Shown one piece after another: positions 2,179 through 28,150 of a stretch of DNA of 32,975 nt; position 1 is the stretch's first letter; each line of letters begins with the position of its first letter. The position numbers were made by a program, and so were the translations under genes. The DNA is taken from positions 1 through 32,975 of the forward strand of contig SKJE01000200.1 of NCBI GenBank assembly GCA_007116075.1, given 5' to 3'. Below the pieces are notes generated by a model, which worked only from the letters and a program-made list of their open reading frames with translations, ran no database searches and had not been told where the DNA came from. This DNA is from Spirochaetia bacterium (GTDB taxonomy: Bacteria > Spirochaetota > Spirochaetia > PWKH01).

Positions 2179-3021
2179 CACCTGATCAGCTGCATCAATA
2201 CCGAGCACCACTACCTGGATATCCACCGGACCTGCACGATCGTAAGGCCAGTACGTGAGGGTCGGTTCTGAAGTAGTGAGAAAGGGCTGGTGATTGACAT
2301 ACCAGAGATATACCGGGGCGATAAGGGGATCGTCAGGAAGCAGTGATACCGCGGTGAAGGAGACGGGGCAGCCGAGGGGCACCTCCTGGCCGCTTCCAGC
2401 CAGTGCAGCAGACAGTTCTATATAGGGAATCCGCTGAGCCTTCAGGGATCCCTCAGGAGTGAGCAGGTAGGATGAACTTCCCCCCGGAAGAACCAGAACT
2501 GGACTGAACTGCTCATGCCCAGCTCCTGCAGTGAACAGCAGGTATGCCCCGGAGTATACCTGCAATGTATCCCCGTGGTGAAACTGCCGGACCAAGCGTC
2601 CATCGAGGGTGAGCAGCAGAGCCTGCATGGACGGTTCTCCCTTGAGGACCACCTCGCCGTATCCTGATAGGGGAGTGAAGGTGACTTCCCCTTGGACAGC
2701 TGCACCGGGAGCCGCTTCGATGAACAGCGGAACTGCATCTGCAGTCTGCGCATCGGCTGCATATCCCCGGGCTGAAATGTGCCATCTTCCAGCCGGCAGC
2801 TCCAGAACAAGGGGGGATTCCGGGATTCCTCCATACCGGGATGAGTACAATCTGCCTGTAGTGTCTGCTGCGGTGACTTCCAACTCCCTGATGAGGAGGG
2901 TACTCATGCCGGGTTCAGGAATCATATTCAACAGGACAGCCCCGGTCTCCTCTTCAGGAATAAGGTGGCTGCAGCCGGCGGACAGCACTGCAAGAATGAT
3001 CCATACTGCCGAGAATTTCAT
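2131..3021 (-). CDS. Putative lipoprotein with PKD/Ig-like C-terminal region
   Basis: The 296-residue product begins with a short lipoprotein signal peptide: positive start (MKFSAVW), hydrophobic core, and lipobox LSAGC with the acylated Cys at residue 17. The mature protein is predicted to be anchored to a membrane and exported. The middle (about residues 25-200) is beta-rich with repeated Gly/Pro turns. The C-terminal 90 residues (CPVSFTAVSLLPDDP ... YLWYVN ... LTYWPYDRAGPVDIQVVV) look like a PKD/Ig-type sandwich, a fold often used for surface binding. I chose the ATG at 3019-3021 because AGGAGG lies seven bases upstream; an earlier start at 3042 would put seven extra residues before the signal peptide and overrun that site. 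It lies 67 bases after the KamA-like gene on the same strand, so the two may be co-transcribed. Function not recognised. Confidence 0.75.
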   Translation of the reverse strand: MKFSAVWIILAVLSAGCSHLIPEEETGAVLLNMIPEPGMSTLLIRELEVTAADTTGRLYSSRYGGIPESPLVLELPAGRWHISARGYAADAQTADAVPLFIEAAPGAAVQGEVTFTPLSGYGEVVLKGEPSMQALLLTLDGRLVRQFHHGDTLQVYSGAYLLFTAGAGHEQFSPVLVLPGGSSSYLLTPEGSLKAQRIPYIELSAALAGSGQEVPLGCPVSFTAVSLLPDDPLIAPVYLWYVNHQPFLTTSEPTLTYWPYDRAGPVDIQVVVLGIDAADQVLCIGSAQGRILVTQD

Positions 3022-3088
3022 AGGTAAGCCTCCTATATCCATTCTACGGGAGGCAGAAGGCTTGAACCACGCCCCGGCAGGCGGAGCG

Positions 3089-5266
3089 TTACTGGGAGGG
3101 GAGTTCCAGATGCTTGAATGTTTGGGTTACCTTGAAGTGGTATCCCGGATACTCAAAGGTGGGCATCCTGGTCTCAAGGGAGCCGAGGGAGTACCCCCAT
3201 ATAGTGACATATTCACTGATCTGTTCCCCAAGCTCCTCCAGCTGATCCAGGTAGGTTCTGATGGACTTTGACTCAATGATGATTACCGCTTCCATATGGT
3301 CCACAATGGGGCTGTGGGGTCTGCTGTGGTCCTGCTCGAAGGAGAGGACCCGCCTGCCGTCCTCGGTTATTCCTATGGTTCGGAAGGTATTGCTTTTTCC
3401 TACACCCGGTAGATTGATCGTGTTCCGGTCTGTGGCAAGAAATGGGATAGAGGCTCCCTCACGGATGCTGTTGATCTGGCTGACCATTCCTTCTGCATAT
3501 TTTGAGAACTTCCTAATCTCGCTGTAGTATTTCGGATCCACCCGTCCGATGGATTTCTCCTCCACCTGTTCCTGGATGGATCGCGAATTGACCGAAAAGA
3601 GGGCAGAATTCTCCCGATAGCCCTTCACGGTAAAGGTATAGTAGGGCAGGACGCCGATGTCGTTAAGCACCTTCCGCAGCTTTGCCGTGTGGCCCCGGAG
3701 TGAACCGGGTACAATAAATACCTGCTGATTGGTGACCGTCCAGCCTGCAGCAATGAGTTTTCGTACCGCTTCGGCCGACTCCGGAGTTATTTCCATGGCG
3801 GTTGAGAAATGGGTCTGGATGACAAACTGCTTGATGCCGATCCTGGACGCCTTCTGCTTAAACTCATTCAGTATGGATGCACGCTTATCGGAAATTCGCT
3901 GGGGGAGGTAGATGGGAATCTTCGTTCCCAGCCGGACCCGGACAATCTCTGCATACTTCTCTCCGTTGGGACGGCTTTTATTTGCCCGCTGCTTTCGCTT
4001 TGCCATATCATAGACAGCATCAAGAATCTGCTTTAGAGACTGCACAGAGCTCATCATCGCATCCCCGCCGGTGATCAGGATGTCCTGGAGCTGGGGATCC
4101 TCTTCAAAGTAGCTCATGAGCTCCTCCAGCTGATTATCCCATTTTTTCTTCGGTTTCAGCTTATCCAGGTCAAAATTGAACCGTCCGTTCTGGAAATCAT
4201 ACATCCGCTGGCAATAGGCGCACAGCCCCCCGCAGGCCCGGCCCATGGTAGAGGGAATAAAAATAGCTACATTGGGATATCGGCGATGCACATTATTGGA
4301 GGGCAGCAGCCACCCCGCCGCATTGGGTTTGCCCGGTTCGATAAGGTCCTCCTTCTCCCATGCGCGGATCTGGCCGAATTCCTCCACCAGATCCCGGCTG
4401 TAGAGCACATACTGGCGAATAGCCGCATCGGCATACTTGTACTGCTCCGGGGGATCCGGAAGCAGCAGGGAGAGAAAATAGGGAGTGACGAATATGGGAA
4501 TATGCTTCTTCTCAGCCTCTTTCATGACCTGCACAGTCTGCTCATCAAGGGTGTTGCCCATCATGACCTGCAGTTCATCGGTGCTTTTTACAGCGTTCTG
4601 AAGATGAAAGAGGTCATCATCCCACCACTGTTCAAGCTGCTGTAGCTGCTCTTGCTCCGACATGCCCGGTGAAAACAGGAATTTGCCCCGTTTTTTGGTT
4701 CTGCTTTTCTCTGCGATTCTTTCCTGCAGCAGCCGGATGATACGTTCCCTGTTCTGTTTGCGCAGATGGACAATGATGGGGTCCAGCCCGGATGGGTGCC
4801 GGTCCATCCATACGGTTATCGAATCTTTCCTAGGTATTTTACGCTTTTCAATGCCGCTGAGCTGCCTGAAGAGGTGCAGCATATCCTCATAGAAGTCTGG
4901 AGTTCCCCCATAGATCCCTTCCTTCAGCGCCCTGCGCAGGATGTCAAAGGGGCGGGAGATGATCTCTGCCCCCTGAAGATTGGGGTCCTCAAAGGATGAT
5001 CCCTCATGGTTCAGATAATCAAGGACCCGGATAATAGCCAGGTCCTTCCATGAAAGCTTGTAGAAGGGGACCTCTCCCCGTTCCTCACCGCTGAAATACG
5101 CGAAGGCCTGGGGATGTTCCCGAAGCATCTGGAGGATTTTTTTCCGGTACTGAGTTGTAAATGTCTTGGTGCTTCGGGAACGAATCATCATGGATGCAAG
5201 TTCCGGCTGTTCTTCCCTGATCTGTGTTACTAGCTGTATGCAACTTTCTGAAATATGTTCATTCAT
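3089..5266 (-). CDS. KamA-like radical SAM protein, unusually long
   Basis: A 725-residue cytoplasmic protein, well above the usual 350-470 for lysine 2,3-aminomutase (KamA) relatives. Residues 345-352 contain the radical SAM cluster motif C-x3-C-x2-C (CGGLCAYC), which binds a 4Fe-4S cluster and SAM. ILITGGDA near residue 397 matches the KamA GGD motif. VLPYYTFTVKG and a later LPGVGKS (Lys622) resemble the KamA PYY segment and the PGGxGK loop that carries the PLP lysine. The first 230 or so residues have no motif I recognise and are the extra part. True aminomutases move an amino group between alpha and beta carbons; EpmB-type relatives modify EF-P. The substrate here is unknown. The start is the ATG at 5264-5266, six bases after GAAGGG; an in-frame ATG at 5272 would abut that site. 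The lipoprotein gene follows downstream. Confidence 0.8.
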   Translation of the reverse strand: MNEHISESCIQLVTQIREEQPELASMMIRSRSTKTFTTQYRKKILQMLREHPQAFAYFSGEERGEVPFYKLSWKDLAIIRVLDYLNHEGSSFEDPNLQGAEIISRPFDILRRALKEGIYGGTPDFYEDMLHLFRQLSGIEKRKIPRKDSITVWMDRHPSGLDPIIVHLRKQNRERIIRLLQERIAEKSRTKKRGKFLFSPGMSEQEQLQQLEQWWDDDLFHLQNAVKSTDELQVMMGNTLDEQTVQVMKEAEKKHIPIFVTPYFLSLLLPDPPEQYKYADAAIRQYVLYSRDLVEEFGQIRAWEKEDLIEPGKPNAAGWLLPSNNVHRRYPNVAIFIPSTMGRACGGLCAYCQRMYDFQNGRFNFDLDKLKPKKKWDNQLEELMSYFEEDPQLQDILITGGDAMMSSVQSLKQILDAVYDMAKRKQRANKSRPNGEKYAEIVRVRLGTKIPIYLPQRISDKRASILNEFKQKASRIGIKQFVIQTHFSTAMEITPESAEAVRKLIAAGWTVTNQQVFIVPGSLRGHTAKLRKVLNDIGVLPYYTFTVKGYRENSALFSVNSRSIQEQVEEKSIGRVDPKYYSEIRKFSKYAEGMVSQINSIREGASIPFLATDRNTINLPGVGKSNTFRTIGITEDGRRVLSFEQDHSRPHSPIVDHMEAVIIIESKSIRTYLDQLEELGEQISEYVTIWGYSLGSLETRMPTFEYPGYHFKVTQTFKHLELPSQ

Positions 5267-5353
5267 GATCATCCCTTCTCATTTGCGTCATTGTATTGTA
5301 TATATATGAATCAAGTATAGATAAGCGTAACGATGGTAATCACTTGTATGTCT

Positions 5354-5383
5354 AGTATACAAAGAGTAATAGAGATTGGTCAA
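5354..5383 (-). promoter_or_regulatory. Possible promoter for the KamA-like gene
   Basis: On the minus strand, TTGACC (5378-5383) and TATACT (5354-5359) lie 18 bases apart, each matching five of six consensus positions. This lies in the 144-base divergent region between the KamA-like gene and parE and would give a leader of about 80 bases. I see no equally good plus-strand promoter for parE; TTGTAT (5344-5349) with TAATAG (5367-5372) is a weak candidate. Confidence 0.4.
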
Positions 5384-5410
5384 CTGAAGCTTCAATAGTA
5401 GGACAGTGAG

Positions 5411-7219
5411 ATGAAGGCAAAACAAGCTGCAGCAGTGGTATATGACGAGAGTAAAATCAAGACCCTGAGCTCCCTTGAGCATATCAGGCTCAGGACAGGT
5501 ATGTACATCGGACGGCTCGGGGACGGAAGCAATATCGATGACGGTATATACATCCTGCTCAAAGAGGTCATTGACAACAGCATTGATGAGTTTATTATGG
5601 GATACGGCCGTGAGATCCGGATTGAGATCAAGGACAGCCGGGTGCGGATCCGTGATTACGGGCGCGGGATCCCCCTGGGCAAGGTGATTGACTGTGTATC
5701 AATCATCAATACCGGCGCTAAGTATAACGATGAGGTGTTCCAGTTCTCCGTTGGACTCAACGGGGTTGGAACCAAGGCGGTCAATGCCCTCTCCTCAGAT
5801 TTCCGTGTGGTCTCCTTCCGAAAAGGGGATTTCTTTGAGGCGAACTTTAAGCAGGGAATGCTGAAGAAAAAAAAACAGGGTAAAAGTCCCGATGAGGCCG
5901 ATGGTACCCTGGTAGAGTTTGTGCCTGACCCTGAGATATTCGGGGAATTCGCCTTTGATGATGAATATGTCGAAAAGCGTATCTGGAACTACGCATACCT
6001 GAATGCAGGATTAACTCTGGTGTACAACCGGAAACGGTATGTATCAAGAAACGGCCTGTATGACCTGCTGTCAAATGAAGTTGGATCCGACGGCCTCTAT
6101 GACATCATCCACTACAAGGGGCAGCAGTTGGAGTTTTCCCTGACCCACACCACCAATTACGGGGAGAACTACTATTCCTACGTAAACGGCCAGTATACCA
6201 GTGACGGAGGAACCCATCTGAGTGCATTTCGGGAGGGAATTCTCAAGGGAGTCAATGAGTATTTCAAGAAGAACTACTCCGGAGTCGATGTCCGGGAGGG
6301 TGTCGCCGGGGCGATATCGGTTAAGCTCATGAACCCGGTCTTTGAGAGCCAGACAAAGAACAAGCTGGGTAATACCGACATAAGGAGCTGGGTGGTTCAG
6401 GAGGTGAAGTCGGGTGTCCTGGATTTCCTGCTGAAACATAAAAAGGAAGCCGACAAACTGGCAGAAAAGATCGTCCAGAATGAGAAACTGCGCAGGGAAC
6501 TCAATGATGTGAAAAAGGGTGCCCGGGAGGCGGCAAAGAAGATCTCCTTGAAGATCCCCAACCTGAAGGACTGCAAGTACCATCTGGGGGATACCCATAA
6601 ACGCTCTGAGGAGACTATGATTTTTCTGACCGAAGGGCAGTCCGCCTCGGGATCTATGGTTTCAACCAGGGATGTATATACTCAGGCTATCTTCAGTCTC
6701 CGGGGAAAGGTGCTCAACGTCTTCGGCAAGAAACGGACCGAGATCTACAAGAACGAAGAGCTCTACAACCTCATGATGGCCCTGGGGTTGGAAAACGGTA
6801 TTGAGGGACTGCGGTATGCCAGGGTGGTGATTGCTACCGACGCTGACTACGACGGTTTTCATATCAGGAATCTGCTGCTGACCTACTTCCTGAACTATTT
6901 TGAGGATCTGGTAATCAGCGGGAGGGTCTGTATATTGGAGACCCCCCTTTTCAGGGTGCGGAACAAGAAGCAGACCATCTACTGCTACAACCAGAGTGAA
7001 CGGGAGACTGCGGTCAAGCAGCTCTCATCCCCGGAAGTAACCCGATTTAAGGGACTTGGAGAAATTTCCCCTAAGGAATTTGGTCAGTTTATCGGGAAGG
7101 ATATCCGGCTGGTGCAGGTGAACGTGAAGTCCATCAAAGATGTGAATGATACCCTGGGATTCTACATGGGTAAGAATACCCCGGATCGGAGAAGCTTTAT
7201 CATGGAGAACCTCATATAA
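5411..7219 (+). CDS. parE: DNA topoisomerase IV subunit B (ParE-type)
   Basis: The ATPase subunit of a type IIA topoisomerase, 602 residues. It has the GHKL ATPase fold at the N terminus (EVIDNSIDEF with the Mg-binding Asn, DYGRGIP, then the glycine-rich GLNGVGTKAVNAL), a transducer domain, and a TOPRIM domain with FLTEGQSASGS and the metal-binding ATDADYDG. TEGQSASGSM in place of the GyrB-like EGDSAGGS is a variant I associate with the ParE form in Bacteroidetes-like lineages. ParE with ParC decatenates daughter chromosomes. The start is supported by AGGA seven bases before the ATG. The stop TAA overlaps the ATG of parC by one base, so the two subunits are translationally coupled and very likely made in equal amounts. 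A gyrB identity is less likely because of the TOPRIM variant and the partner gene, but cannot be fully excluded. Confidence 0.9.
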   Translation: MKAKQAAAVVYDESKIKTLSSLEHIRLRTGMYIGRLGDGSNIDDGIYILLKEVIDNSIDEFIMGYGREIRIEIKDSRVRIRDYGRGIPLGKVIDCVSIINTGAKYNDEVFQFSVGLNGVGTKAVNALSSDFRVVSFRKGDFFEANFKQGMLKKKKQGKSPDEADGTLVEFVPDPEIFGEFAFDDEYVEKRIWNYAYLNAGLTLVYNRKRYVSRNGLYDLLSNEVGSDGLYDIIHYKGQQLEFSLTHTTNYGENYYSYVNGQYTSDGGTHLSAFREGILKGVNEYFKKNYSGVDVREGVAGAISVKLMNPVFESQTKNKLGNTDIRSWVVQEVKSGVLDFLLKHKKEADKLAEKIVQNEKLRRELNDVKKGAREAAKKISLKIPNLKDCKYHLGDTHKRSEETMIFLTEGQSASGSMVSTRDVYTQAIFSLRGKVLNVFGKKRTEIYKNEELYNLMMALGLENGIEGLRYARVVIATDADYDGFHIRNLLLTYFLNYFEDLVISGRVCILETPLFRVRNKKQTIYCYNQSERETAVKQLSSPEVTRFKGLGEISPKEFGQFIGKDIRLVQVNVKSIKDVNDTLGFYMGKNTPDRRSFIMENLI

Positions 7220-20660: not shown

Positions 20661-21617
20661 ATGGTGCAGATACAGAAACAACCGATCATGCTGAAGGTGC
20701 TCTATGGTCTTGCCCCGCTCGGCCTTGCAGGTCTCTACTGGTACGGCTGGCGGGTACTGCTGATCTATGCGATAGTCTTCGCCTTCGGGCTTGCATCAGA
20801 ATCACTGATGGCCAAGTATTTTAAGATGAAGACCAGTACCTCGGTGTTCGTCTCATGCGCACTCTATGCTCTTTCCCTACCGCCGACTGTACCCCTCTGG
20901 ATTGCAGCGGTGGGTATTGTCTTCGGTATAGTTTTCGGAAAAATGGTATTCGGCGGCTTCGGGAAGAACATCTTTAATCCCGCAATAACAGGCCGGGCTT
21001 TCATATACACGAGTTTCGGTGTTCCCATGACCAGCCAGTTCATACCGACCGCTGTGGAAGCACACGGCTGGTTTCCCGGCGGGTTCGGGGTGTACCTGCC
21101 CCGGGGTGTCGATGCAGTTGGGGCTGCGACTCCCCTGACGGTACAGGCTGAAGGTACTGCCGTCGGGTTTTTAGACCTGTTTATTGGAGTGGTGCCCGGT
21201 TCAATCGGGGAAGCCTCCGCTCTCTTGGTGCTCCTCGGAGGGCTCTATATCATCTGGAAGAAAGCTGCAAACTGGCGGCTTACGGTATCCTCCATAGCAG
21301 CATTTCTTGTAATGCAGACCATATTTTTTGCCGCCGGTGTTGATGGTGCGATCAATCCTGTCTACGCCCTGGTGAGCGGAAGTTTCCTCCTGGGAGCTTT
21401 TTTCATGATCACCGATCCGATATCAGCATCCCAGTCCACCAACCTGGGACGATGGATCTATGGAGCCACCTTCGGAGTACTCACCGTGCTGATACGGGTC
21501 TTTTCAAACTGGCCCGAGGCGATTTCCTTCTCTATTTTGCTGGTCAACATGTTTGCACCCCTTCTTGATCATCTCATAAAAATGTATAACACCAGACAGA
21601 AGGAGGTTCGGGAATGA
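20661..21617 (+). CDS. nqrB: Na+-translocating NADH:quinone reductase subunit B (NqrB/RnfD family)
   Basis: A 318-residue inner-membrane protein of the NqrB/RnfD family, the core subunit for Na+ passage and electron transfer. About ten hydrophobic segments are visible. GGFGKNIFNPAITGRAF (residues 98-114) is a family signature. The flavin site is VGAATPL with Thr157 at the position where FMN is covalently linked through phosphate. It is clearly shorter than usual NqrB (around 410) and nearer to RnfD, lacking the long N-terminal extension. The call as Nqr rests on nqrF at the end of the operon. GGGGGA lies a few bases before the ATG; a GTG three bases further on has better spacing and is an alternative start. 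Its stop overlaps the nqrC start (ATGA). No nqrA precedes it; nrdJ does. Confidence 0.85.
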   Translation: MVQIQKQPIMLKVLYGLAPLGLAGLYWYGWRVLLIYAIVFAFGLASESLMAKYFKMKTSTSVFVSCALYALSLPPTVPLWIAAVGIVFGIVFGKMVFGGFGKNIFNPAITGRAFIYTSFGVPMTSQFIPTAVEAHGWFPGGFGVYLPRGVDAVGAATPLTVQAEGTAVGFLDLFIGVVPGSIGEASALLVLLGGLYIIWKKAANWRLTVSSIAAFLVMQTIFFAAGVDGAINPVYALVSGSFLLGAFFMITDPISASQSTNLGRWIYGATFGVLTVLIRVFSNWPEAISFSILLVNMFAPLLDHLIKMYNTRQKEVRE

Positions 21618-22210
21618 AGAAAGACTCCTTTTTTGCCCTTCGGATATACCCCCTGCTGTTCATGGGAGCAGTTACGGTGATCTGTATAACCCTGGTGACC
21701 GGTATCTTCCTTTCCACTGAGGACCGGGTAAGGAGCAATGAACTGCTCTTTTTCCGTATAGCAGTCCTTGAAGCGGCGGGAGTGGAATTCTCCCCCGACG
21801 ACTACCTGCAGGTCCAGGAGATCTTTGAACAGCGGGTGGTTGAGGAACAAGGGTTTTACCGGGTAAATCTCCAGGACGGGGAGACTAGTTTCGTGATATC
21901 CGTCACAGGAGCTGGTCTCTGGGGACCAATTGAGATGATGCTGGGTTTCTTTGAGGATTTGGAGACTATGACAGGTATATCGATTCTCAGCCACAATGAG
22001 ACCCCAGGACTTGGAGCACGGATTGAAGAGGCCTGGTTTATTGAACAGTTCCGGGGCAAGCAGGGACCCTTAACTCTTGTGGCTGAGGGTACCGCAGATG
22101 CTCCCGATGAAATTGACGGTATAACAGGCGCAACCAGGACAACCGTTGCGGTCGGTGAGATTGTCAACAGGGGCATCCGACAAGTTCCTGGAACCATCAA
22201 GGAGGAATAA
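21614..22210 (+). CDS. nqrC: Na+-translocating NADH:quinone reductase subunit C (NqrC/RnfG family)
   Basis: A 198-residue protein with one N-terminal membrane anchor (about residues 11-34) and a large domain on the outer face that carries covalent FMN. The flavin motif is ITGATRTT with Thr174 as the attachment residue, matching the S/T-GAT-x-T pattern needed by the flavin transferase ApbE. ETPGLGARI (129-137) is another family hallmark. It is shorter than typical NqrC (about 255) and close to RnfG in size, while GAGLWGPIEMM has features of both. No apbE gene lies in the window, so the transferase must be elsewhere. AGGAGG is seven bases before the ATG, which overlaps the nqrB stop by four bases. 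Confidence 0.88.
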   Translation: MKKDSFFALRIYPLLFMGAVTVICITLVTGIFLSTEDRVRSNELLFFRIAVLEAAGVEFSPDDYLQVQEIFEQRVVEEQGFYRVNLQDGETSFVISVTGAGLWGPIEMMLGFFEDLETMTGISILSHNETPGLGARIEEAWFIEQFRGKQGPLTLVAEGTADAPDEIDGITGATRTTVAVGEIVNRGIRQVPGTIKEE

Positions 22211-22212
22211 CT

Positions 22213-22818
22213 ATGGCAAAAGGCGTTGTGAAGAAAACATTCCTCAAACCCCTCGGCAAGGACAATCCCGTGTTTGTGCAGATTCTGGGAATCTGTTCTA
22301 CCCTTGCGGTGACCAATAAACTGGAGAATACTGTGGTGATGTCCATGGGGGTCCTGTTTACCACAGCCCTCTCAGGCTTCACCCTCTCACTGATTCGCAG
22401 GTTCATCCCCGGACGGATCAGAATGATGGTGGAGACCATGGTCATTGCCACCTATGTCATCATTGTTGACATTGTTCTGAGGGCCTTCTATCCAGATATC
22501 TGGCAGCAGCTGGGGCCCTATGTCGGGCTGATCATTACCAACTGCATCATAATGGGACGGGCGGAGGCCTTCGCCCTGAACAATCCGCCGGGACTCTCCC
22601 TGGTGGACGGGATCTCAACCGGGATCGGCTATTCATACGTCCTGATAATCATCGCCTTCTTCCGGGAACTGCTCGGTACCGGGCAGTTATGGAATGTACA
22701 GATCTTCGGCGACTGGTGGACCAACTGGTCTATCATGGTCATGCCGCCGGGGGCGTTCTTCATGCTGGCCATATTTATTTGGATCGTGAAGGGTGCAGTG
22801 ATAAAGGAGGAGCAGTAG
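22213..22818 (+). CDS. nqrD: Na+-translocating NADH:quinone reductase subunit D (NqrD/RnfE family)
   Basis: A 201-residue inner-membrane protein with six hydrophobic segments, normal for the family. It has the two half-site cysteines that, with those of NqrE, hold the iron centre inside the membrane: Cys28 (LGICSTLAVTN) and Cys111 (ITNCIIMGRAEAFA). NqrD and NqrE are inverted-topology relatives that pair in the complex. AAGGAGG lies just upstream of the ATG, within the end of nqrC, leaving two bases between the genes. Confidence 0.92.
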   Translation: MAKGVVKKTFLKPLGKDNPVFVQILGICSTLAVTNKLENTVVMSMGVLFTTALSGFTLSLIRRFIPGRIRMMVETMVIATYVIIVDIVLRAFYPDIWQQLGPYVGLIITNCIIMGRAEAFALNNPPGLSLVDGISTGIGYSYVLIIIAFFRELLGTGQLWNVQIFGDWWTNWSIMVMPPGAFFMLAIFIWIVKGAVIKEEQ

Positions 22819-22819
22819 T

Positions 22820-23413
22820 ATGGAAAGCAGCTGGTATCCCATAGCGGTATTCTTTGCCGCAGTATTTACGAACAACATTCTACTGACAAACTATCTGGGC
22901 ATGTGTTCCTTTCTATCGGTAGCAAAGGATCTCAAGGCCTCGGTAGGTCTGGGCATAGCGGTCACCTTCGTCATGGCTACTACGACAGTGCTCAACTGGA
23001 TGGTATATAACCTGATCCTTGAGCCCTTCGGACTCGAGTACCTCCGCTTTATTGTATTCATCATCGTCATTGCGGCCTTTGTGCAGCTGGTTGAGATGAT
23101 TATTGAGCGGGTCAGTGAAGGACTTTATGCAGCCCTGGGAATATTCCTCCCGCTGATTACGGTGAACTGCGCCATTCTCGGAGTCAGCCTTTTTATGGTC
23201 ATCAGGGACTATGGTCTGATCACTTCCTTGTTCTTCGGCTTCGGAAGCGGGATCGGCTGGTTCCTGGCTATCCTCTCCATGGCGGGGATCCTGCAGAAAC
23301 TCAAGAAGGCACGGATTCCCAAGGGGCTTGAAGGAGCTGGAATCACCCTGATTATCACGGGAATCATGGCATTAGCATTTATGGGATTCTCGGGCATGCT
23401 GCAGATAGGATAG
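22820..23413 (+). CDS. nqrE: Na+-translocating NADH:quinone reductase subunit E (NqrE/RnfA family)
   Basis: A 197-residue membrane protein, the partner of NqrD. Cys29 (NYLGMCSFLSVA) and Cys117 (ITVNCAILGVSLF) are the expected iron-centre ligands. FTNNILLTNYLG near residues 16-27 is a strong NqrE/RnfA signature, and there are six hydrophobic segments. AAAGGAGGAG precedes the ATG and sits in the end of nqrD, from which it is separated by one base. Its end is nine bases before nqrF, with GGGAGG in between. Confidence 0.92.
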   Translation: MESSWYPIAVFFAAVFTNNILLTNYLGMCSFLSVAKDLKASVGLGIAVTFVMATTTVLNWMVYNLILEPFGLEYLRFIVFIIVIAAFVQLVEMIIERVSEGLYAALGIFLPLITVNCAILGVSLFMVIRDYGLITSLFFGFGSGIGWFLAILSMAGILQKLKKARIPKGLEGAGITLIITGIMALAFMGFSGMLQIG

Positions 23414-23422
23414 GGAGGTGCC

Positions 23423-24529
23423 ATGATTACAACGCTCTTAATCAGTGTAGGACTAGTCACCAGTATCTCAGTATTTCTTGCTCTGCTGATGGTGATTGCA
23501 GATGCAACGATTGCGAACTACGGAGAGGTGGGTATCAGTATCAATGAGGGCTCCAAGGAACTGACCGTTAAGGGCGGTCAGCCTCTTCTGAAGGCTCTCA
23601 ATGAGCAGGGAATCTTCATCCCCTCCGCCTGCGGAGGACGGGGTTCCTGCGGCCTGTGCAAGGTTCAGGTGCTCCAGGGCGGGGGACAGGTTCTGCCGAC
23701 CGAACTTCCCTGGCTCAGTGAGGAAGAGGTGCAAAACAATGTGAGGCTCTCATGCCAGTTCAAGGTCAAGCAGGATGTTGAGATCAAGATTCCTGAAGAG
23801 CTGTTTTTAGTAAAGGCATTCCAGACCAAGGTTGCAAGGATCCGGGACCTTACCTATGACATCAAAGAGGTGACCCTTGAACTGATTGACCCTCCGGAAA
23901 TTAACACCCAGGCTGGACAGTTCATCCAGTTTCAGGTGCCCGAGTATGAGCTGACCGATGAGGAGGTATACCGTGCCTACTCAATCTCGTCGGCCCCGAG
24001 TGACAACAAGCGGGTTGAGCTTGAGATCCGCCTTGTACCAAACGGCATCTGCACTACCTATGTGCATAAATTTCTCAAGGAGGGAGACACTGTCATGATC
24101 AACGGTCCCTACGGAGATTTCTATCTCCGGGATACCGAGCGTGAGATAATCTGTGTGGCCGGGGGGTCCGGCATGGCTCCCATCAAGTCTATCCTCCTTG
24201 ATATGGTAGATAACGGTATTTCCCGGAAGACCCGCTATTTTTTCGGGGCAAGAACGACCAAGGACATCTTTCTTCTTGATGAGATGAAGGAGCTGGAGGA
24301 AAAACTGCCCGATTTTACCTTTATCCCTGCGCTGAGTGATCCTCAGGATGATGAGCAGTGGAGCGGTGAAACCGGACTGATTACCGATGTGATAGATCGG
24401 ATGGTGGACAATGTGCAGGAAACTGAGGCCTACCTGTGCGGAAGTCCAGGTATGATAGATGCCTGTGTGAAGGTTCTGAAGAACAAGGGCATTCCGGAAG
24501 AGCTGATCTATTTTGACAAATTCGCATAA
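23423..24529 (+). CDS. nqrF: Na+-translocating NADH:quinone reductase subunit F (NADH dehydrogenase, 2Fe-2S and FAD)
   Basis: A 368-residue protein that takes electrons from NADH. Residues 4-26 are the single membrane anchor. A plant-type ferredoxin domain follows, with ligands Cys70, Cys76, Cys79 and Cys111 (ACGGRGSCGLC, then LSCQF). The ferredoxin-NADP reductase part has the FAD motif RAYS at 184-187, the NAD motif VAGGSGMAP around 245-253 and a C-terminal YLCGSPGM. It ends with FDKFA, as in NqrF. It is about 40 residues shorter than the usual 407, with no motif missing. NqrF is what separates this operon from Rnf, which has RnfB and RnfC instead. GGGAGG lies four bases before the ATG. Confidence 0.95.
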   Translation: MITTLLISVGLVTSISVFLALLMVIADATIANYGEVGISINEGSKELTVKGGQPLLKALNEQGIFIPSACGGRGSCGLCKVQVLQGGGQVLPTELPWLSEEEVQNNVRLSCQFKVKQDVEIKIPEELFLVKAFQTKVARIRDLTYDIKEVTLELIDPPEINTQAGQFIQFQVPEYELTDEEVYRAYSISSAPSDNKRVELEIRLVPNGICTTYVHKFLKEGDTVMINGPYGDFYLRDTEREIICVAGGSGMAPIKSILLDMVDNGISRKTRYFFGARTTKDIFLLDEMKELEEKLPDFTFIPALSDPQDDEQWSGETGLITDVIDRMVDNVQETEAYLCGSPGMIDACVKVLKNKGIPEELIYFDKFA

Positions 24530-24541
24530 GGGGGCTCTAGG

Positions 24542-25009
24542 ATGAAGCAATCACCGCTACTCCAGCATATACAGCAGCAGATGAAGCCCGGGGTTATTAC
24601 CCTAGACGGGTTTCTCGGTACCGACGAAAGAAACCTGATAGATATACTTATAGATGATGACGGGACAGTACGCCGGCTGGGGAGGACTCACCGGGCTATC
24701 GCCCGAAGGATGCAGTACTTTCGTGATGCAGGGTATGAAGGACTTGGAGAGTTCATCAAGGTGGATGATTATTACGAGGTACGGGTGGATTCAGTACGGG
24801 GAAAGCTTCCCTCCCCCTTCGGAGGCCCCGCACTCTACCAGAAGGTGAATTCCATCGTCCGGAACCTGAAACTCGGCAGGGAGATCGTCTATACTGATAT
24901 GCATATCCATTTTGCCCGGGATCACGGATTCTATGAGGGGAAGGGATCCCTGTTCAGAATTGAACCGGAAGACCTGATCACGATTCTTGAAGTCCCTCCG
25001 GAGGCGTAG
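24542..25009 (+). CDS. Unknown 155-residue protein at the end of the nqr operon
   Basis: I do not recognise this protein. It is soluble, with no signal peptide or membrane segment, and rather charged. The centre (about residues 15-50) reads VITLDGFLGTDERNLIDI then a DDDG turn, followed by GRTHRAIARRMQYFRDAG, a basic helix that could bind nucleic acid or phosphate. The second half has strands with KVDDYYEVRVDSVRGKLPSP and a histidine-bearing YTDMHIHFARDHGFYEGKGS. Its start is 12 bases after nqrF on the same strand, with a GGGGG tract upstream of the ATG, so it is almost certainly in the nqr transcript. It ends two bases before the convergent PII-like gene. Possible roles include assembly or regulation of the complex, but nothing in the sequence proves it. 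Confidence 0.7.
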   Translation: MKQSPLLQHIQQQMKPGVITLDGFLGTDERNLIDILIDDDGTVRRLGRTHRAIARRMQYFRDAGYEGLGEFIKVDDYYEVRVDSVRGKLPSPFGGPALYQKVNSIVRNLKLGREIVYTDMHIHFARDHGFYEGKGSLFRIEPEDLITILEVPPEA

Positions 25010-25011
25010 CT

Positions 25012-26064
25012 TTAGGATCCGAAGGAATAGGCCCGGGGTACTTCAAGCACCTCAATGGGGCCGACGGAGGAGCCGAGGGATCCCGATGCAGTGCTCAGGG
25101 CCTTCAGAATCTTAGCTGAACTGCCTTCAGCGGCTATGCAGGTGATCCGCTCCCAGGCGCCAAACTCCCCGATATCGGTTCGCTGCATACGGGTGATGGT
25201 GGCTCCGCCCGCCCCGGCATTCATGGCGGCTTTGATCAGGGTATTTGAGAGTCCCTCCATACATGAAATGGTAATCTCCCACTGCCTGCTCAGCAGCGGA
25301 AACTTCAGCAATTTCGGTTCTATGTAGCGCTTTCGCCAGGAGGTATCCCCCTTCAGGTCATCAACAGCAGCAATAATCTGTTCAATACTCGCCGCATATT
25401 CCTGGGGACCGATGATCATCCGTGAATCAACCACGCCCAGTTCGACCGGTGTCTGGTACAAGAATCCGCCCCCGGGACGGTCAAGATGCGCCTGCTCGAT
25501 GATCAGCTGCATGATTCCCCCAGCATCATGGGTCGGAACCACGCAGTGGACCAGCTCCTTTTCCGGCGGAATGGTGATGCGAAGCAGTCCGAGACGGTCC
25601 CTGATGCCGGTTCCGATTCCTCTTGTGACTACCGGAACTCCGATACCAAGGGCGAGGATCACCTCAGCGGTTTCTTCACCTGCTCCAGAATCGGAAAGGA
25701 TGCAGGTAATTTGGGAAAGTTTGGGGGATTTCATCTTCACCGGCTGGGGGGATTCCGGTGTGTAGATCTGAACCTGCTGCTGGATAATGCTCCCCCTTCC
25801 CGGCAGCTTAAGCTGGGCCTCCCTGGCCAGCAGATGGATAAGCTCTTCAGTATGATCGGATGAACAGAGAATGTGAAGTCGTTCTCCTGGTGCATCATCC
25901 AGGGTGCTGCGGACTCCCGGCAGACCAAAGGGCCTGGGACGGCGTACCTGACGTACATTTCTACAGGACTCAAGCAGTATCTGCTCAACCGGTGATCCGT
26001 CAAGGATTTTGATCAGGCGGGAGCTGATGCTGTGATGGACGGTACAGGTGACTCTACTGCTCAT
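25012..26064 (-). CDS. Protein of repeated PII-like signalling units
   Basis: A 350-residue soluble protein that looks like several PII (GlnB-like) ferredoxin-fold units in one chain. Unit one spans about 1-105 and ends with REAQLKLPGRGSIIQQQVQI; unit two spans about 116-212 and ends with HLDRPGGGFLYQTPVELG. The matching PGxG-strand ends show they are copies. A third unit (about 262-345) has the AGAGGATITRMQ segment seen in PII-type folds before its T-loop region, followed by a C-terminal strand. PII proteins sense ATP, ADP and often 2-oxoglutarate and switch partner proteins. The Lys/Arg-binding residues of classic GlnB are not evident, so the ligand is open. AGGAGG six bases before the ATG supports the start, which lies inside the upstream DUF1538 gene (11-base overlap). 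It probably regulates that transporter. Confidence 0.7.
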   Translation of the reverse strand: MSSRVTCTVHHSISSRLIKILDGSPVEQILLESCRNVRQVRRPRPFGLPGVRSTLDDAPGERLHILCSSDHTEELIHLLAREAQLKLPGRGSIIQQQVQIYTPESPQPVKMKSPKLSQITCILSDSGAGEETAEVILALGIGVPVVTRGIGTGIRDRLGLLRITIPPEKELVHCVVPTHDAGGIMQLIIEQAHLDRPGGGFLYQTPVELGVVDSRMIIGPQEYAASIEQIIAAVDDLKGDTSWRKRYIEPKLLKFPLLSRQWEITISCMEGLSNTLIKAAMNAGAGGATITRMQRTDIGEFGAWERITCIAAEGSSAKILKALSTASGSLGSSVGPIEVLEVPRAYSFGS

Positions 26065-28114
26065 CCGGGGCCTCCTGCTGAATCTCCTTCATGGTGCGCT
26101 TTTCCTTCAGCCTGATGAGAAAACCGTACACCTGTACCGAGAGAATGGGGCAAACCGATGCCATGGCAAGGATCCCGAATCCCTCTATACTCTGCATTGC
26201 TCCGCTCATTCCCAGACCCAGGGCCATCACCAGCGGTACGGTTACAGGGCCGGTGGTGACTCCTCCACTGTCCCAGGAAACACCGACAAAATCCCGGTCT
26301 GTCCAGACGGTCAGAGGAATAAGCAGCAGGTACAGGGGAACAATCAACAGGGTTATAGGTAGTTCATAGAGTATTCGCAGTACTCCAAGCACAAGTCCAA
26401 CACCGACACCTACGGATACCGCCCTGATAACCCCCCTGCGCCGGACGGTGCCGATAGTCATCTCCTCAACCTTTCTGCCCAGGGCGTTAAGTGCGGGCTC
26501 AGCAAGGGTCGAACCGTATCCAAGGCCGAAGGCGAATATCAGCACCACAGCAATGCCTAGGGCGGTGATTGCCGGAGCGGCTGGAAGTATTGTTCTGGTA
26601 TACGTATATACTGCAGTCTCCGGATCATGCCGGTCCGGTGCGTAGAGAACTCTTCTGGTCTCTCCGTTCTCCCTGAGATAAAAAAACTGCTGCCGTTCAC
26701 CTTCCAGGGAGATATCCTCATAGAGCAGCTGCTTGTCGAAACCGGTGATCGGTATGGACTGTTCGTGATCCTCTACCTGGTACATCCTGGGCAGCTGTCT
26801 GCCGAGGGTATCCCCCAGCGGGGCCAGACCGATGCGGATGCCTGTTGTGAGCAGTGCCATCCCTACAAGGGTAAGGGCGATACCGAGGAGAAATTCATCG
26901 GTGTACCTCGGCCGCTGTTTGAGCAGTACCAGCAGCACGAAGAGCAGCAGCCCGGTAAGGGGAATCACCGCCCTCAGGGCTGATACCGACTCCTCCTGCA
27001 GAAGTTCCGGGACTGGAATCTGGTAGGGATCTTTCCCTGAAGGAGATGATATCCCTTCAGCCTCCATGTATTTCCGCTCCTGTTCTGTTGCATGCTCAGC
27101 AAGCCATTGACTGAGACTCATCCCGGCGAGCAGGGAGTGGTTTTCCGCTAAGGATGAGAGTGCTTGCCGATAGGCCTGTTCATCTTCATAAAAAGCCCGT
27201 CTTCCATCCTCGCTGCCCCGGATATAAGCGTGCTGTTCCAGGGTTTGTTCATCGGGAAAGAACACCAGCGCCTGGTCCCGGTGCTCTGCTGAAAAAAAAC
27301 TGGTCTCATCCATGGGATCCGGCAGGGTCAGGGATAACCCGAAGGAGAGCAGCATCACGCAGAGCACTGGAAAGAGTGAGGCCAGAGCGATGCTTCCGAA
27401 TCCTGCAGATGTACCGTGCTGCTTCCCCGAAGCCCGGGCAACTCCAATACTCAGGGCAAGTACCAGAGGGACCGTGACCGGGCCGGTGGTCACTGCACCG
27501 GTATCCCAGGCGAGGGCAATAGTGCTGCTGAGCTTATCTGAAGTGGTGAACAGCAGGGTAACCCCCAGGACAATCGGCAGGGTTATAAGGATGAAGGGCT
27601 TGAGGCTGAATCCGTACTGGTAGCGGATGAGACTTGCGGCAACCGCCAGGCCAACGCCGACCCCGACAGATCCAATGAGCATACCGGGACTGCGTTCCAG
27701 CAGGTGGAAGAGCACAGGAGCTTCCCACACAGCGGTTTCAGAGCCTGCAGTTCGAAGGATACTGATTGCCGGTTCCGCCAGGGTTGAGATGAATCCGATG
27801 AGCAGACCGAAGATGATAACCTGAAAGAGCCTGCTTTTTCCCGGCAGCAGCAGCCCGACTGTTTCACCGAGAGGCATGAGGCCGAGGGTGAGTCCCTCCA
27901 TGAAAAGGGTGAGCCCGAGGATGACCGCGATAATTCCTAGTGTGATGCCCAGGGACATCCCCCCGGGAGAACCGAGAATGACCATCTGGAATGCCAGGAG
28001 GTAGATGATAATGAATGCAACAGATCGAACCTGCTCCCGAAATTTCCCGGTGACATACCGGGTCACCAGGGTGAGCATATATTGGGGGGGCAGGGTAATC
28101 CGTTGCTGCTTCAT
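26054..28114 (-). CDS. Doubled DUF1538 membrane transporter (UmpA/UmpB-like)
   Basis: A 686-residue inner-membrane protein made of two DUF1538 halves. Each half has the same three marks: G-L-x-P-L-G-x-T (MPLGETVG and APLGDTLG), STLAEPA, and a signature WD-[ST]-G-x-VTTGPVTVPL starting at Trp203 and Trp614. Two hydrophilic inserts (about residues 265-375 and 440-505) probably lie outside the membrane. In some bacteria the halves are separate proteins reported as a two-part Na+(K+)/H+ antiporter, UmpA-UmpB; here they are fused. The start is the ATG at 28112-28114 because the promoter -10 box lies at 28151-28156, so the GTG at 28150 cannot be used; GAGGAG is 11 bases upstream. The PII-like gene follows with an 11-base overlap. 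The transported ion is inferred from the family. Confidence 0.82.
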   Translation of the reverse strand: MKQQRITLPPQYMLTLVTRYVTGKFREQVRSVAFIIIYLLAFQMVILGSPGGMSLGITLGIIAVILGLTLFMEGLTLGLMPLGETVGLLLPGKSRLFQVIIFGLLIGFISTLAEPAISILRTAGSETAVWEAPVLFHLLERSPGMLIGSVGVGVGLAVAASLIRYQYGFSLKPFILITLPIVLGVTLLFTTSDKLSSTIALAWDTGAVTTGPVTVPLVLALSIGVARASGKQHGTSAGFGSIALASLFPVLCVMLLSFGLSLTLPDPMDETSFFSAEHRDQALVFFPDEQTLEQHAYIRGSEDGRRAFYEDEQAYRQALSSLAENHSLLAGMSLSQWLAEHATEQERKYMEAEGISSPSGKDPYQIPVPELLQEESVSALRAVIPLTGLLLFVLLVLLKQRPRYTDEFLLGIALTLVGMALLTTGIRIGLAPLGDTLGRQLPRMYQVEDHEQSIPITGFDKQLLYEDISLEGERQQFFYLRENGETRRVLYAPDRHDPETAVYTYTRTILPAAPAITALGIAVVLIFAFGLGYGSTLAEPALNALGRKVEEMTIGTVRRRGVIRAVSVGVGVGLVLGVLRILYELPITLLIVPLYLLLIPLTVWTDRDFVGVSWDSGGVTTGPVTVPLVMALGLGMSGAMQSIEGFGILAMASVCPILSVQVYGFLIRLKEKRTMKEIQQEAPDEQ

Positions 28115-28150
28115 AGATTCCGCGACTCCTCTTATTGGGTGTGTCCCCAC

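Follow-up and report, generated by a model that had tools for sequence, protein, structure and literature searches.

Why should the gene for a PII-like protein overlap the gene for a membrane transporter, and what could such a protein do there? This question is raised by a locus in a window of 32,975 nucleotides (the whole stretch of DNA that was analysed), which corresponds to contig 153 of the 2.2-Mb, 200-contig, 94% complete genome of a Spirochaetia bacterium. The nearest named relatives of this genome are Spirochaetaceae from sediment metagenome assemblies, whose isolate names we read as pointing to a soda lake. On the minus strand of the window, two open reading frames (ORFs) follow each other: (i) a 686-aa ORF encoding a fused two-half DUF1538 membrane protein (26054..28114 from its ATG start, or 698 aa from an alternative GTG start at 28150); and (ii) a 350-aa ORF encoding a three-unit PII-type protein, hereafter PII3 (25012..26064; identified from the ORF, the predicted structure and profile matches). 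Both genes share 11 bases (26054..26064), exactly as the initial annotation had it in coordinates, strands and overlap, and the second ATG is preceded by a GGAGG-type ribosome site.

PII proteins are textbook homotrimers (GlnK, for instance, is a homotrimer of about 112-aa chains), and in the pairs GlnK-AmtB and SbtB-SbtA a PII protein is known to control the transporter encoded with it; in the latter, SbtB is the PII-like regulator of the cyanobacterial bicarbonate transporter SbtA. The reading favoured here, with a probability of roughly two in three, is that the two ORFs form one module, composed of a DUF1538 cation/proton antiporter and a dedicated cytoplasmic PII-type regulator that gates it by ligand.

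Regarding the 350-aa chain, it is settled that it contains three PII units and not two, where at least two and probably three had originally been proposed. Searches with the single sequence were uninformative: at E<=10 it has no Pfam match, and hence it stays below the gathering score of PF00543; an NCBIfam search gave nothing useful; and a PDB search reached an E of about 0.05 at best. In consequence, the assignment required relatives and alignment-based searches. Of the 65 family members, 23 match PF00543 (P-II) at E<=0.01 (best 6.8e-9), and a two-unit relative, L017, passes it with 47.1 vs 25 bits. When a profile of the 65 homologues was compared with the PDB at E<=1, all 36 sequences retrieved were PII/GlnK, the best match being that of profile positions 6-107 (unit 1) to GlnK 6yc6 (E 8.2e-6); depending on the PDB target, the best-matching stretch was unit 1, 2 or 3. 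Furthermore, the AlphaFold2 model of PII3 (pLDDT 90.3, pTM 0.89) places the three units well relative to each other and displays three times the beta-alpha-beta-beta-alpha-beta order of the PII fold, which answers the proposal that structure prediction be used to look for three such folds. The best single-domain Foldseek matches of the model are GlnK/PII chains (probability 1.00, target TM-scores of about 0.6-0.7), and the units align with each other by hhalign (1 v 2, E 8e-14; 2 v 3, E 1e-9; 1 v 3, E 4e-5).

Along the chain, the following parts, all encoded on the minus strand, can be differentiated: (i) unit 1, aa 1-104 (25753..26064; model, hhalign and profile), with a conserved R35 and a B-loop-like G89-x-G91; (ii) unit 2, aa 113-212 (25429..25728; alignment), the conserved core, with the T-loop region GTGIRDRLGLLRITIPPEKE and a PGGG B-loop-like motif; (iii) a linker, aa 213-257 (25294..25428; model and conservation), with the near-invariant residues A225, S226, E228, Q229, A233, D235, W243 and R244 and low model confidence; and (iv) unit 3, aa 258-350 (25015..25293; model and hhalign), in which GAGGAT is conserved and the B-loop is lost.

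The 686-aa protein matches Pfam DUF1538 (PF07556) in two stretches (E 6.5e-109; 362.6 bits vs a curated cut-off of 22.6), so that the two halves recognized at the outset are borne out, as is the signature WD-[TS]-G-[AG]-VTTGPVTVPL, found in both. By Pfam and NCBIfam matches, the first half is UmpA-like (27344..28012, minus strand; signature WDTGAVTTGPVTVPL) and the second UmpB-like (26120..26953, minus strand; signature WDSGGVTTGPVTVPL). Two inserts on the same strand are predicted to be extracytoplasmic: an acidic helical one between the halves (aa 262-367, 27014..27331; 20 D/E vs 8 K/R) and, judging by charge and sequence, a beta-rich acidic one within the second half (aa 446-512, 26579..26779). 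UmpAB, a DUF1538 pair (NF041627/NF041628), is a Na+(Li+,K+)/H+ antiporter of Halomonas zhaodongensis, whose subunits UmpA and UmpB have seven predicted membrane segments each and act together (PMC5484666). The earlier statement that DUF1538 proteins have been reported as ion antiporters is known to hold for UmpAB of Halomonas only, the window protein being a distant relative that falls below the NCBIfam equivalog cut-offs for UmpA (207.4/490) and UmpB (148.2/500). It is best described as a putative sodium/potassium-proton antiporter.

As for its topology, positive charge lies in the N-terminus and in loops 91-100, 165-174, 396-406 and 552-561, and negative charge is in excess in both inserts. 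This pattern fits two transporter halves that would be oppositely oriented, with both inserts outside and the positive loops, together with the PII protein, inside; such an arrangement agrees with the seven predicted segments of UmpA and of UmpB (PMC5484666). An SbtA-like or other elevator fold was considered and rejected, since Foldseek returned nothing at E<=0.001 (best TM-scores of about 0.1-0.16) and, hence, no solved transporter resembling DUF1538 at that threshold. A PDB sequence search with the DUF1538 protein gave no real match either, its best hit being a ribosomal protein (E 0.39).

The proximity of both genes extends far beyond the window genome. A scan of 84,980 species genomes from the PII3 side yielded 70 loci encoding three PII units in one chain; they come from Spirochaetota, Bacteroidota, Cloacimonadota, Riflebacteria, Desulfobacterota/Syntrophales, PVC groups, Elusimicrobia and others. 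In 65 of them, the gene immediately upstream, on the same strand, belongs to DUF1538, and the spacing ranges from an 11-base overlap to a gap of about 130 bases; the remaining five are truncated by the start of the contig. Since these loci had been chosen by PII3, a reciprocal search from DUF1538 was run as well, on 57 distinct operons with at least 300 bases downstream. A script found a PII gene within 300 bases downstream in 55 of these operons, and inspection of the remaining two brought adjacency to 57/57; the exceptions to the usual layout are L177, where the PII gene is placed between two DUF1538 genes, and L094, where the PII units are in an overlapping frame. The latter survey comprised Spirochaetota, Desulfobacterota, one Bacteroidota order and a few plasmids, the last being the only source of Pseudomonadota and Bacillota, so that a general pairing means one within these groups. 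The neighbourhood is therefore conserved in other genomes, the point on which the initial annotation had made its proposal depend.

The next commonest neighbour family occurs in five loci, vs 66 and 63 for the two paired families. A wider conserved operon around the pair was looked for and discarded, as no third gene recurs. In the window itself, Nqr/Rnf-type genes B/D, C/G, D/E, E/A and F stand in a row on the plus strand (20661-24529) without nqrA. PF05896 (NQRA_N) has no match anywhere in the 94%-complete genome and, in consequence, this complex may be hybrid in nature or devoid of NqrA. Directly after nqrF, a 155-aa protein (24542-25009, plus strand) has no Pfam or NCBIfam match. A link of the pair to sodium bioenergetics through these neighbours is unsupported, because they are not recurrent near DUF1538-PII pairs.

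The number of PII units follows the transporter. In general terms, the following combinations can be distinguished: (i) in one clade, DUF1538 encoded by separate genes (about 240-270 aa) and a PII of one unit (about 112-115 aa); (ii) DUF1538 that is either separate or short and fused (about 480-560 aa), accompanied by a two-unit PII (about 205-245 aa); and (iii) fused DUF1538, for the most part of 600-735 aa and bearing two inserts, accompanied by a PII of three units (about 350-435 aa). On a quick maximum-likelihood DUF1538 tree, unrooted and with the insert columns excluded, each combination is set apart by a branch; the number of units changes twice, the minimum for three states, when the second operon of L176 is excluded as a contig-end case. 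DUF1538 lineage predicts PII form. Split and fused DUF1538 also require two changes, which implies that fusion (or fission) occurred more than once; an Elusimicrobia contig (L077) has split DUF1538 with three-unit PII. The idea that long inserts always accompany a three-unit PII is refuted by L181, L183, L184 and L186, where DUF1538 proteins of 495-545 aa have three-unit partners. Taken together, gene order and the matched evolution of both genes strongly support the PII-type protein as a dedicated partner of DUF1538 transporters.

Some individual layouts deserve mention. At L176 (2237-6676), two fused DUF1538 operons lie back to back and diverge; the PII has three units in one of them, and in the other it is a two-unit protein of 242 aa that stops 52 bases short of the contig end. 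In L177, a single two-unit PII gene (4404-5105) is flanked by two short fused DUF1538 genes (2883-4370 and 5098-6669), which suggests one regulator for two transporters, or a hetero-complex. Finally, in L043 (3823-5909) and L077 (890-2842), DUF1538 is found in two ORFs beside a three-unit PII, through a frameshift, a sequencing error or fission.

A near-obligate pairing could also mean that the DUF1538 transporter has in the PII-type protein a constitutive structural subunit or an assembly factor, whose ligand sites are relics and which conveys no signal. Sequence conservation has something to say on this. Positions conserved at >=90% number 24 in unit 2 and three each in units 1 and 3, where much of the conservation of unit 2 has been lost, and the B-loop residues of unit 3 are gone; both facts suit a structural role. 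The canonical B-loop GDGK is absent from PII3 (PGGGF in unit 2, PGRGS in unit 1, none in unit 3), and the lysine that follows the B-loop in PII (K90 of GlnB) is missing in units 1 and 2; given these losses, nucleotide binding by PII3, as judged from its residues, may have changed or disappeared. The uridylylation motif Y-[KR]-G-[AS]-[AE]-Y occurs in 0/65 family members, and the T-loop region of unit 2 is shorter than that of GlnB and without the modified tyrosine. However, the T-loop/B-loop region of unit 2 is strongly conserved between phyla and whether the protein has one, two or three units, which suggests a working ligand site; unit 2 can be aligned to the one-unit PII that accompanies split DUF1538 (E 3.5e-8). 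Moreover, transport does not strictly require a PII partner, since Halomonas UmpA and UmpB alone give antiport in E. coli (PMC5484666). A purely structural role is, in consequence, unlikely.

The nature of the signal leaves room for a further explanation, namely that the protein is a metal- or redox-responsive sensor of the CutA1/PII-NG kind, and not a nucleotide sensor. PII-NG proteins are encoded next to the proton/cation antiporters CzcABC, and, in this fold, the site for ATP corresponds to the metal site of CutA1 (PMC7726332). Nevertheless, the residues that are near-invariant in the family (R35, G89 and G91; the G127-G210 and A225-R244 sets; G284-G287) include no conserved Cys/His cluster, and we consider a metal sensor rather improbable. 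That the genes are merely co-transcribed and PII3 has its target elsewhere, for instance in an enzyme or a transcription factor, is the least credible explanation, for even if PII proteins elsewhere have many targets, no third gene recurs near the pair, unit number follows the DUF1538 clade, and the dedicated pairing spans several phyla.

Returning to the gated antiporter, PII genes stand beside essentially every such antiporter gene examined, and the antiporter is therefore probably switched by a signal inside the cell. Units 1-3 would form a pseudo-trimer within the single chain. In this scheme, a small ligand, probably a nucleotide, would bind in a cleft that involves the T-loop and B-loop regions of the conserved unit 2, and the ligand state would shift the T-loop region and the linker ASIEQIIAAIDELKGxTxWRKR; these would then dock on the cytoplasmic face of the antiporter, opening or blocking it, in a manner resembling that of GlnK with AmtB and of SbtB with SbtA. 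The core of that linker, residues 222-246, is the most conserved stretch of PII3 (mean majority fraction 0.72), yet its pLDDT is only 63-75, where the model is least sure, as expected of a segment that becomes ordered on a partner. The linker between units 2 and 3 is thus likely the best candidate for the element that docks on or gates the transporter. In the one-unit PII proteins of L131-L134 and L152-L154, a conserved C-terminal tail around GLESQMxRFK follows the PII unit, where three-unit proteins have their conserved linker; a docking role is possibly shared.

A plain single-chain trimer is complicated by the low conservation of units 1 and 3 and by the sister lineage, whose two-unit PII gives no simple trimer. 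PII3 is unlikely to be the general nitrogen sensor of the cell: the host has its own GlnB-like gene elsewhere, and two Bacteroidota genomes carry the module yet Pfam P-II finds nothing there, which makes the module independent of canonical nitrogen PII. The host also encodes a second PII-like protein (L123, G000:C149:1279-1593) of 115 aa, with a long, odd T-loop region and only a weak match to P-II (E 1.6e-4).

In a broader and more tentative form, for which the odds fall slightly short of even, these loci would represent a widespread class of PII-gated cation/proton antiporters, with one, two or three regulator units per chain according to transporter lineage. The three-unit form would be an asymmetric single-chain pseudo-trimer with one sensing unit (unit 2) and a new docking helix, acting on an antiporter without solved structural relatives. 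In a natural three-in-one PII chain single sites could be mutated one at a time, which is impossible in homotrimers, and the number of sites that have to be occupied before a transporter switches, an old question, would become directly testable. In addition, the poorly studied DUF1538 antiporters gain a probable regulator in several phyla, and 'nitrogen regulator' genes beside DUF1538 are suggested to be ion-transport regulators.

PII-transporter pairs, DUF1538 antiporters and database PII annotations next to DUF1538 are already known. In the open-access literature that was searched, no description was found of a DUF1538-PII link, nor any paper on three-unit, tandem or pseudo-trimeric PII, and the terms PII, P-II and nitrogen regulat- are absent from the UmpAB paper (PMC5484666).

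Among known systems, UmpAB resembles the window protein in that both of its halves are DUF1538; in the window protein, instead, the halves are joined in one chain, which has two long acidic inserts and does not reach the UmpA/UmpB cut-offs. GlnK-AmtB shares with the module a PII-fold protein encoded beside a transporter, control by PII3 being inferred, but PII3 has three diverged units per chain, no uridylylation motif, a shortened T-loop and an unrelated transporter. SbtB-SbtA is similar in pairing a PII-like regulator with one transporter, independently of nitrogen PII; nevertheless, SbtB is a one-unit chain, and DUF1538 is without a Foldseek match to solved transporters at E<=0.001. In PII-NG/CzcABC, a PII-type gene likewise adjoins a proton/cation antiporter, while PII-NG has one unit and CzcABC is an RND metal pump. 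The direct relatives of the module are the one- and two-unit P-II proteins beside DUF1538 (for example, WP_277367899.1 and WP_021431978.1, annotated only as "P-II family nitrogen regulator"), which differ from it in having fewer units and split or short fused DUF1538.
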